Positions 28,280-31,361 of a stretch of 35,117 nucleotides of DNA are shown in pieces. Positions within the stretch are counted from its first letter, which is position 1. Every line of letters starts with the position of its first letter. The notes below the pieces were generated by a model, which saw only the letters and a program-made list of their open reading frames with translations, was not told where the DNA came from and ran no database searches. The stretch lies in the NCBI GenBank assembly GCA_016191015.1, contig JACPPM010000284.1, positions 1 to 35,117 on the forward strand, given 5' to 3'. This DNA is from Acidobacteriota bacterium (GTDB taxonomy: Bacteria; Acidobacteriota; CAIWXX01). A program made the position numbers and the translations under genes.

Positions 28280-29593
28280 TTAGACGGCGTCCGAAATACT
28301 CGAAAATGTGAACGCGCTCGCGCGAACGGCAGGGACCAGCGAGTCGCCGACGCGCACCGACCGCGACATTCCGGTGACCTTGTTGAGCACCGCCACGGGG
28401 CTCTCGTTGAAGCGGAAGTTGCGCACTGCGTGCTTGATCCGCCCCTTCTCCACCCAAAAAGTGCCGTCGCGCGTGAGCCCTGTGACAAGCATCGTCTCCG
28501 GATCCACGAAGTTCGTGTACCAGAAGCGGGTGATGAGGACGGCCTTGTCGGTGTCCTTGATGAGGTCCTCCAAGCTGCCCTTCCCCCCATCGAAGACGAC
28601 GCTCCCCGGGAAGCCGGTCGGTTCTTTTCCCTGCTTTTGCGCCCAGTAGCGAGAGTAGAAGAGCTGTTTCAAGACCCCCTTCTCGATCCACGTGATCTTC
28701 TTCGCGGGCAGGCCGTCCCAGCCGAAAGGCTCACCCAGAAGGTCGGGGTGCGTGGGGTCGCTCCGCACGGTAATGTTCGATCCTGCGATCTTCTCGCCGA
28801 TCTTGTTCTTGCCTCCCGGCTTGCTGAAGAAGCTCCGGCCTTCGTCCGCCGACCGTGCATCGAGGGTGAAGAAGGCGAAGCTCATCAGCTCGGCCACCGC
28901 CTGCGGCTCGAGAATCACAGGGTAGACCCCGGGGTCCAGCCTTTTCGCGTCCCGCGATTCCTCAGCCTTCCGGATCGCCCTCCCGCTTGACCCGCGATAC
29001 TCGACGTCCTCGATCTTCCTCGAATCCACGCTGTCCCACCCCGAGGCCGCACCATCCGTGCTGCGCACCGTCACGCTATAAGAGGCGTTGCTGTTACGGT
29101 AGTAGCCCCAGAGACCTTTGTTGTTTCCGACGGCGGAAAAGCCGTTCGAATGATCGAAGAACCCTGCGGCCACCAGGCCCTTCTTCATGGCTGGATCGAC
29201 GGCCGCCTCTGCGGCCCGAGCGCGCAGATCCGGGGTGGCCGCCGCTGTGCTCTCGAAGTACGGGTCGACATCCAGATACTTCTGCGAGGCGAGCTCGGGG
29301 ACGTACTCCGGGTCTTCGGGCGCGACGCGCGCGATGTCCTCGGCCATTCTCACCGCACGCTTCAGGGCGGCATCGTCAACCTCGTTTGTCGATGCGGCGC
29401 CCTTCTTTTTCCCGAAGAAGGCGGTGATACTGATCGAGAGATCCTCCTGATCGCCGCTGGTCGTGACGGTGTTCAAGGCGAACCGTGTGTTGCCGCTCCG
29501 CCACCCGGCCAGATTCACCCGCATCTCGTCGGCGGTGCCAAACGATAGGATCTTTGAGATGATGGTACGAGCTTCAGCTTCATTCAGGATCAT
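28280..29593 (-). CDS. tldE: TldE/PmbA-type subunit of the TldD/TldE protease
   Basis: 437 residues. TldE lacks catalytic metal ligands and partners TldD in a heterodimeric metalloprotease that degrades unfolded or modified peptides (microcin B17 maturation and CcdA decay in E. coli). No HExxxH is present. The family blocks GSVVFDGGKGSLEDLIKDTD, RFWYTNFVDPETMLVTGLTRDGTF, and NFRFNESPVAVLNKV are clear. The ATG overlaps the tldD stop by 4 nt (ATGA), which suggests equimolar synthesis. Confidence 0.9.
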   Translation of the reverse strand: MILNEAEARTIISKILSFGTADEMRVNLAGWRSGNTRFALNTVTTSGDQEDLSISITAFFGKKKGAASTNEVDDAALKRAVRMAEDIARVAPEDPEYVPELASQKYLDVDPYFESTAAATPDLRARAAEAAVDPAMKKGLVAAGFFDHSNGFSAVGNNKGLWGYYRNSNASYSVTVRSTDGAASGWDSVDSRKIEDVEYRGSSGRAIRKAEESRDAKRLDPGVYPVILEPQAVAELMSFAFFTLDARSADEGRSFFSKPGGKNKIGEKIAGSNITVRSDPTHPDLLGEPFGWDGLPAKKITWIEKGVLKQLFYSRYWAQKQGKEPTGFPGSVVFDGGKGSLEDLIKDTDKAVLITRFWYTNFVDPETMLVTGLTRDGTFWVEKGRIKHAVRNFRFNESPVAVLNKVTGMSRSVRVGDSLVPAVRASAFTFSSISDAV

Positions 29594-31080
29594 GCGTTTT
29601 TCCCCGTGTTGAGAATGTTCACCTTTCGGAACCTCGCCGGCGAGCAGCCGTGGCTGACCGCGTTGATCTGCCCCGGTTCGCCCTTTCCGTCGTAAAACGA
29701 TCCGCCCATCTCCCAGGAGCGCTCATCACAGATCGCATCGCAGGCATTCCAGAACTCCTGCGAGTTGGCCTGGTAGGCAACATCTCTGAGCATACCCGTG
29801 ATCTTGCCTTTCTTGATCTCGAAAAACGCCTGCCCGCCAAATTGGAAATTGTACCGTTGCTGGTCGATCGACCAGCTCCCATCGCCCACGATGTAGATGC
29901 CGTCGTCTGTATCGGCGATCAGCTGCTCGAGAGTCAGCGGCTTCTTGCCGGGCTCCAGGTGGATATTCGGCATGCGCTGGAAGGGGACAGAAGCCCAACT
30001 ATCCGCGTAGCTGCAGCCGTAGGAGCGATCGGCGGGTGGCAGGCCGCCAGCTTTGCGAGCTGCCTGGTATTCGGGCCAGCTCACCTGCTCGAGTGTGGTC
30101 TGATAGTCGACGAAGACCCCGTCTTTGACAAGATGCCATTCGGATGTTTTGACGCCATCGTCGTCGTATCCGCATGAGGCGAGCCCGGAGCGGATGGTCT
30201 TGTCGGCTTTGATGTTGACGATGGGGGAGCCGAGTTTGAGCTTGCCGAGCTTGTCGGTGGTGAGGAAGCTGGTGCCGGCGTAGTTGGCCTCATACCCGAG
30301 TGCGCGATCCAGCTCGGTGGGGTGGCCGACCGACTCGTGGATCGTCAGCCACAGGTTGGTGGGATGGAGAACGATGTCCTTCTTGCCGGGCTCGACACTC
30401 TTGGCCGTGAGCTTCTGTACGGCCTCCTCGGCCATCTTCGACGCCAGCCCGATGAGATCGGCCCGCTCAACAAACTCGTATCCCAGCCCCATGGGCGGCA
30501 CGTCCACCGTCCGGGTCTCGAATTCAGCACCACTCTCGTCCAGGGCGGTTACCGTGAACGAAGGCCATGAACGGTAGATGTTCTGTTCGAGAAGAGATCC
30601 GGCTGTGGAGGCGAAGAACTTCTCTTCATTGAGAAACCGCATGGAAGACATGCAGAACTTCGCCCCCTTCACCTTGAGCGCCTCGGCGTTCACACGCAGC
30701 AGCAGATCGATCTTCCGCTCGATCGGAATCTTGAATGGATCTTTCTCGATCGGGCTCTGCCAGTGGTCAATCTGCTTCTGAACGGGCGGCAGCTCGACCC
30801 GCTTCCGCAGGACCGTCTTGTTCGCGCGAGCAATCGCCATGGCGCGGCGGGTGACGTCGGCCACGTTCTCCGCCGTCACGCGATGCGAGGCTGCAAAGCC
30901 CCAGGTCCCATCCACAAGCACACGCACGCCGAAGCCGTAGCTCTCACTGTTTTCCACCCATTGAACCCGCTCCTCCCGCGTCCAGATATCCTGGCTGCGG
31001 TGGCGCGAGATCCGGATATCAGCGTAGGTGGCGCCGCCGGAATCGGCGGCATTCAACGCGATGTCAGTCAGCTCCTTCAT
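29590..31080 (-). CDS. tldD: Metalloprotease TldD
   Basis: 496 residues from the ATG at 31080, which overlaps the stop of the small upstream gene (ATGA) and has a G-rich ribosome site; the frame extends to 31128 but only as shadow of that gene. HESVGH at 248-253 (in TIHESVGHPTELDRA) is the zinc-binding HExxxH of TldD, and Cys479 in SHGCSPARF fits the third ligand. TldD cuts peptides threaded into the dimer with TldE. No Tat or Sec signal lies on this protein, so the pair should act in the cytoplasm, whereas the first gene of the operon carries a Tat signal. Confidence 0.93.
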   Translation of the reverse strand: MKELTDIALNAADSGGATYADIRISRHRSQDIWTREERVQWVENSESYGFGVRVLVDGTWGFAASHRVTAENVADVTRRAMAIARANKTVLRKRVELPPVQKQIDHWQSPIEKDPFKIPIERKIDLLLRVNAEALKVKGAKFCMSSMRFLNEEKFFASTAGSLLEQNIYRSWPSFTVTALDESGAEFETRTVDVPPMGLGYEFVERADLIGLASKMAEEAVQKLTAKSVEPGKKDIVLHPTNLWLTIHESVGHPTELDRALGYEANYAGTSFLTTDKLGKLKLGSPIVNIKADKTIRSGLASCGYDDDGVKTSEWHLVKDGVFVDYQTTLEQVSWPEYQAARKAGGLPPADRSYGCSYADSWASVPFQRMPNIHLEPGKKPLTLEQLIADTDDGIYIVGDGSWSIDQQRYNFQFGGQAFFEIKKGKITGMLRDVAYQANSQEFWNACDAICDERSWEMGGSFYDGKGEPGQINAVSHGCSPARFRKVNILNTGKNA

Positions 31081-31361
31081 CTGTTCCCCCCCGCCGGTTC
31101 GATCCCCAACACAAACCGTTCGCGCCATTTCTCCGGCATCCGGTAGTGGACGATGTCCTCCGCCATCTCCTCGAATGGCACCCCGGCGTAGTGAGCACGC
31201 CCGTCCGAGCTGCGACGGAAGGGCCCGCCGTGGAATACGTACGCGATCTCTCCGACGCGGCCTTGGTGGGACACACTACCCCAGGCGAATGGTCCTTGGG
31301 GCACCAAAGCCACCGAGACAATGGCCAGCGAACTGGCCTTCACGAACTCTCGTCGTTCCAT
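31077..31361 (-). CDS. Small Tat-signal protein coupled to tldD
   Basis: 94 residues. MERREFVKASSLAIVSVALV is a twin-arginine signal: Arg3-Arg4 followed by EFVK fits the RRxFxK pattern, then a hydrophobic stretch and a probable cut near Phe25-Trp27. The remaining 67 residues are compact and charged (FEEMAEDIVHYRMPEKWRERF) and match nothing I know. GGAGGAGGG lies 12-13 nt before the ATG. It is the first gene of an operon with tldD and tldE, and its stop overlaps the tldD start. It might be a substrate, a peptide precursor or an unrelated exported protein. Alternatively it is the remnant N-terminus of a Tat-exported TldD ancestor. Confidence 0.65.
   Translation of the reverse strand: MERREFVKASSLAIVSVALVPQGPFAWGSVSHQGRVGEIAYVFHGGPFRRSSDGRAHYAGVPFEEMAEDIVHYRMPEKWRERFVLGIEPAGGNR

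Follow-up and report, generated by a model that had tools for sequence, protein, structure and literature searches.

A Small Tat-Signal Protein Encoded Ahead of tldD and tldE Is a Candidate Export Escort

The window, by which we mean the whole stretch of 35,117 nucleotides of Acidobacteriota DNA that was analyzed (contig JACPPM010000284.1, from a genome of 6.43 Mb), carries on its minus strand, as read from its open reading frames, an operon consisting in order of an ORF of 94 aa, tldD, and tldE. The small protein has a twin-arginine (Tat) signal and a conserved mature part, TldD and TldE have no signal of their own, and most related TldD proteins carry a Tat signal fused to their N-terminus. 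The small protein is, in our judgment, probably a Tat leader acting in trans that carries folded TldD and TldE out as a hitchhiker complex.

The operon and its products

The first-pass annotation had described three genes joined by ATGA at both junctions, and the coordinates on the minus strand bear this out (Table 1). The start of tldD was placed at 31080, as in its relatives; a mechanical ORF caller also gives a 512-aa version from 31128. By domain scan and alignment the two larger products have the hallmarks of the TldD/TldE metalloprotease, in that each matches all three Pfam PmbA_TldD domains above the cut-off and TldD has an HExxxH motif. They resemble E. coli TldD/TldE, as presented in portions of PMC5810440 and in structure 5nj5, in belonging to a heterodimeric metalloprotease family with an aligned HExxxH motif, but the similarity between the two TldD proteins amounts to only about 50 bits.

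Table 1. Features of the operon, in window positions
Feature	Position	Strand	Remarks
Small Tat-signal protein gene, escort candidate	31077..31361	-	94 aa, MERREFVKAS..., first in operon; 11 further genomes have a homologue
Tat-like signal segment, residues 1-27	31281..31361	-	RR at 3-4, hydrophobic to about residue 20; TIGR01409 below cut-off
Conserved segment HGGPFRRSSD	31203..31232	-	relatives: HGSPY.., YGSPYRKSCD, QGSPFRKNCD
Conserved C-terminal segment VPFEEMAEDIVHYRMPEKWRERF	31113..31181	-	predicted helical; proposed docking segment
Run of seven G ahead of small gene/tldD junction	31086..31092	-	not conserved
Small-gene stop TGA	31079-31077	-	sequence reading
ATGA overlap, small gene/tldD	31077..31080	-	sequence reading
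tldD	29590..31080	-	496 aa, without own signal peptide; match to E. coli TldD 5nj5_A, E 8.7e-13
TldD metal-binding motif HESVGH	30322..30339	-	E. coli TldD has HEAVGH at the aligned position
ATGA overlap, tldD/tldE	29590..29593	-	sequence reading
tldE (pmbA)	28280..29593	-	437 aa, without signal peptide

Beyond the end of tldE lies, on the plus strand, the gene for a 275-aa protein (27302-28129) that has two similar stretches of about 90 residues and no Pfam match. An imperfect inverted repeat (28150-28250, around GGATCCCATGCC / GGCATGAGATCC), which resembles an interspersed repeat, sits between the convergent ends of this gene and tldE.

Tat signals were judged by motif together with TIGR01409 just below its cut-off: on this NCBIfam model (TAT_signal) the small protein scores 15.9 bits, the cut-off being 16.7. 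A Pfam scan assigned it to no family, and the length of 67 residues that had been given for its mature part presupposes an assumed cleavage site. From an alignment of 11 sequences AlphaFold predicted, at medium confidence (mean pLDDT 66), a helix for the signal, little order in the middle part, short helices at residues 63-74 and 77-84, and no globular fold; for the homologue at locus L044, modeled without an alignment, it predicted helices at residues 3-24 and 58-77 at low confidence. The predicted shape is, weakly, better suited to a docking tail than to a free effector.

A family of small proteins ahead of signal-less tldD genes

Together with the window protein, the family comprises 11 further homologues, six from Acidobacteriota and five from Neomarinimicrobiota. 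In 11 of the 12 members a signal-less tldD follows as the next gene, the twelfth standing at a contig end, and the twin arginine is likewise present in 11, with K-R-S in its place in L036. The small gene overlaps tldD by 4 nt in seven of the 11 members whose tldD is visible, and is separated from it by about 50 nt in L055-L057 and by about 10 nt in L121; the start codons of the small genes of L044 and L055-L057 are non-ATG and less sure. Among four close family pairs dN/dS was 0.47, 0.13, 0.48, and 0.18.

Used as a query, the single 94-aa sequence gave only noise among its matches, and a plasmid tblastn found no relatives. Profiles of the mature part alone, built by leaving out one lineage at a time after L199 had been added, ranked each of eight lineages above every non-family ORF (9222 ORFs), with E values from 8.1e-22 (window) to 0.0056 (L044). 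The window protein was also the best outside match (E 8.4e-7; 7387 ORFs) of a mature-part profile of L055-L057 and L121, and a profile of the window and Neomarinimicrobiota mature parts found L045 at 2.6e-4, L121 at 0.27, and L044 at 0.047, the last ranked below one unrelated ORF (0.025). Judged by these comparisons, the mature part is one homologous family across all members.

When 396 Acidobacteriota genomes were searched with a 10-member profile, with 12 candidates scored per genome so that weak members may be missed, 89 gave some match at E<=0.01. Full-length matches below 1e-6 came from seven, namely the six known genomes and G552, in which an 83-aa family protein precedes a signal-less tldD, and all seven stood beside tldD. 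The other matches were mainly to the signal part of longer frames, as judged by range and frame length, or to two 80-aa proteins described below. Scoring of all candidates in 10 genomes gave one full-length copy in each of eight and none in G218 and G070. Among 245 Neomarinimicrobiota genomes the full-length matches were the four known ones and one from G331 (E 7.2e-18), whose gene (L199:1501-1782) stops 7 nt short of the contig end. No close tldD was found among the 92 of 134 G331 contigs read whole and the ends of some others; contig C50 of this genome has tldD/tldE-like genes, which belong to a different subfamily and reach at most 33% identity.

The 94-residue Tat-signal protein of the first-pass annotation is therefore real and conserved, as seen from the homologues in place elsewhere, from dN/dS, and from the cross-detection of mature parts. 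Its reading frame is conserved, the expected place ahead of tldD is kept by every member apart from that of G331 at its contig end, and no full-length homologue is demonstrably without tldD.

Fused and detached signals on related TldD proteins

A scan with the window TldD of one genome per species yielded eight loci. Four are from Neomarinimicrobiota, with a TldD that is 68-70% identical and an ORF of 96-98 aa that overlaps tldD by ATGA or GTGA; a Tat signal is fused to TldD in L038 (Saprospiraceae) and L039 (Acidobacteria), L042 lacks both a fused signal and a small gene, and L041 is truncated where its contig ends. At E<=1e-60, TldD was found at 44 places in 34 of 247 Acidobacteriota genomes. 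Sorted by eye into signal classes, 24 of these places have a fused Tat signal, six have the small gene of this family ahead of a tldD that lacks a signal (genomes G000, which is that of the window, G130, G091, G034, G021, and G047), 11 have neither, one lies at a contig end, and the remaining two have a different 80-aa Tat gene ahead of tldE-tldD. A close TldD (E<=1e-100) occurs in four of 245 Neomarinimicrobiota genomes, with the small gene in all four. Matches at E<=1e-110 were present in 27 of 296 Bacteroidota genomes, and the 30 loci taken contained 35 TldD stretches; a fused RR, KR, or RK leader is present in all 32 complete proteins, the three further stretches being cut by the locus end. 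A search aimed at another phylum led back to Acidobacteriota.

TldD proteins fused to a similar N-terminus, for which the first-pass annotation had advised a search, are thus common in both Acidobacteriota and Bacteroidota. These Tat-fused TldD/PmbA proteins belong to the same TldD clade as that of the window, are about 40-60% identical to it, and have a TldE without a signal; they differ in that the signal is in cis and in lacking both the small gene and the conserved tail. No TldD place among the loci compared has both a fused signal and the small gene. Nor was a Tat signal found on TldE in any of 45 rows (39 distinct places), so that TldE must be a passenger where TldD has the signal fused. 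For this clade, in which most TldD proteins carry Tat signals, the premise of a cytoplasmic TldD/TldE is probably wrong.

The genome of the window has a second TldD/TldE pair (L001/L004, G000:C146, about 34.0-35.9 kb), with a fused Tat signal (SRRDFISTG) on TldD and none on TldE; this TldD lies far from that of the window on the tree. Some Bacteroidota have two or three closely spaced tldD genes in a row, Tat-fused where seen (L137, L161 [G693:C12:138823-145578], G766, G781, G794, and G716). In G021 and G034 an 80-aa Tat-signal protein heads an operon of small gene, tldE, and tldD (L122:2488-2730, L123:2196-2438). Because a comparison with mature-part profiles gave no match, and hence no detectable likeness to the family, we kept this protein out of it; dN/dS for this unrelated pair is 0.22, and the protein is possibly a second, independent escort. 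The TldD proteins of G218 (L047) and G070 (L054) belong to the exported clade and lack a fused signal, and neither genome encodes a family member. These TldD proteins are perhaps back in the cytoplasm; they may have lost export or may leave by another route. The gene upstream in L054 was considered as a large escort and rejected; it is an unrelated 486-aa ORF, which we take to be aminoglycoside-acetyltransferase-like.

The exported clade was supported 100/100 in a 52-row TldD tree. For a reduced, outgroup-rooted tree of 48 rows, L001, L042, L054, L062, L072, L126, and L128-L131 were dropped as long branches or distant outgroups, as was L123, a truncated near-copy, and seven of the 30 Bacteroidota loci were added. 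On this reduced tree the 11 detached rows need five changes, at least four of them on starred branches, and the AU test rejects the detached rows as one clade (lnL lower by 125.7, p 1e-54). With correction for descent, the small gene and the fused signal swap in four of five independent pairs and show no difference in one (sign test p 0.125); the exclusivity of the two is consistent, not significant. Because the homologous small protein occurs in scattered lineages, the separate gene seems old and seems to have been replaced by fusions more than once, the direction at the root of the exported clade being the more conjectural part. With detached forms turning up in scattered places on the TldD tree, the fused state may be the derived one, contrary to the idea of a leader that became detached. 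That an indel in the run of seven G had split a single gene was rejected, as relatives split the genes at unlike sequences.

An escort for TldD/TldE and its alternatives

In the mechanism that we infer, the 94-aa protein would work through its N-terminal twin-arginine signal and its short, partly helical conserved tail. In the cytoplasm the tail would bind TldD, alone or as a heterodimer with TldE, once folded and metal-loaded, presumably by way of the docking segment; the signal would then bring the three-part complex to the Tat translocase, which TldD and TldE would cross as passengers. Through the 4-nt overlaps translation of the genes would be coupled, and escort and cargo would be produced in step. 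A gene for TatC is present in the genome of the window and in eight of 10 other genomes, and was not found in G047 (79% complete) or G249. The ingredients of Tat hitchhiking are accordingly at hand: a translocase, one partner with a Tat signal, and others without.

By analogy, MelC1/MelC2 of Streptomyces and PaoABC of E. coli are experimental precedents for the proposed escort, PaoA being an iron-sulfur subunit of its enzyme. In the former, as passages of PMC2758597 describe, the upstream gene encodes a Tat-signal helper, the tyrosinase "caddie," and the downstream enzyme, which has no signal, hitchhikes. The window operon has the same order, with the candidate helper gene first and a signal-less enzyme downstream, whereas in the MelC system a copper enzyme is carried and copper incorporation also requires MelC1 (PMC2758597, in part), and the window operon has two putative cargo subunits. 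We claim no homology: a scan of 10 members of the small-protein family gave only the Tat signal and three single weak matches, none of them to a MelC1 model. In PaoABC one Tat-signal subunit, PaoA, escorts the two signal-less subunits PaoBC (PMC4273604, in part). One carrier for two subunits without a signal is likewise what the gene content of the window suggests, but this carrier is a short protein without a known fold or cofactor.

The first-pass annotation had offered three guesses for the small protein: a processed peptide, an exported effector, or the detached Tat leader of an ancestral secreted TldD. The role of leader fits best, because closely related TldD proteins have a fused Tat signal. 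Detachment does not describe it well, because the protein has a conserved mature region, which the fused TldD proteins are without, and because the phylogeny is at least as compatible with an ancient stand-alone gene and fusions that came later. For the other two guesses we found no positive evidence. Processing would make the small protein a substrate, a RiPP-like precursor trimmed by TldD/TldE in the cytoplasm before or instead of export, which we consider quite improbable. E. coli TldD/TldE does cleave a leader peptide (portions of PMC5810440), and no globular fold is predicted for the small protein, but TldD proteins of the same clade are expected outside on account of their fused Tat signals, the 10 window proteins scanned (part of its ORFs) included no known RiPP-modifying family, and loci with a fused signal are without the small gene, an absence not expected of a substrate. 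That the protein is an exported effector with no connection to TldD/TldE beyond a shared operon is very unlikely: although gene order is the only direct link to tldD and tldE, the tie to a signal-less tldD is kept across two phyla and scattered lineages, and no full-length match was shown to be without tldD.

Two further readings concern what the small protein might do beyond, or instead of, carrying. It is unlikely, if somewhat less so than processing, that the protein, once exported or tethered to the membrane, remains a working subunit of periplasmic TldD/TldE, as anchor, inhibitor, or substrate gate, with carrying only secondary; the conserved tail extends past the signal, whose helix might remain as an anchor, but fused relatives manage without the tail. 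This reading overlaps with that of an escort. Hardly credible is a -1 ribosomal frameshift at the run of seven G that fuses the small protein and TldD into one chain. Slippery heptamers for -1 frameshifting follow the rule X XXY YYZ, which G GGG GGG fits in frame, and a -1 shift there enters the tldD frame; however, the junctions of L035, L036, L037, L040, L044, L045, and L121 have no such run, and L055-L057 have about 50 nt between the genes.

An extension of the escort reading is doubtful. It holds that the ancestral form of the TldD/TldE clade was a three-part exported peptidase, in which the small Tat subunit both escorted TldD/TldE and shut the peptide chamber until outside, and that several lineages later dispensed with the subunit by fusing a bare Tat signal to TldD. 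If true, this would be a trans-acting, self-inhibiting protease leader, with natural cis/trans replacements to compare.

Literature searches, in which subscription literature was thinly covered, found no exported TldD and no TldD with a Tat partner, and the words "periplasm" and "secreted" are both absent from the main text of the E. coli TldD/TldE paper (PMC5810440). Our findings suggest that a protease family that has been studied as cytoplasmic has a large exported branch, and they add a small new family of proteins that most likely serve to take a folded enzyme through Tat. The sister genes L046, with its leader in cis, and L044, with its leader in trans, would provide a natural experiment on the acceptance of complexes by Tat.
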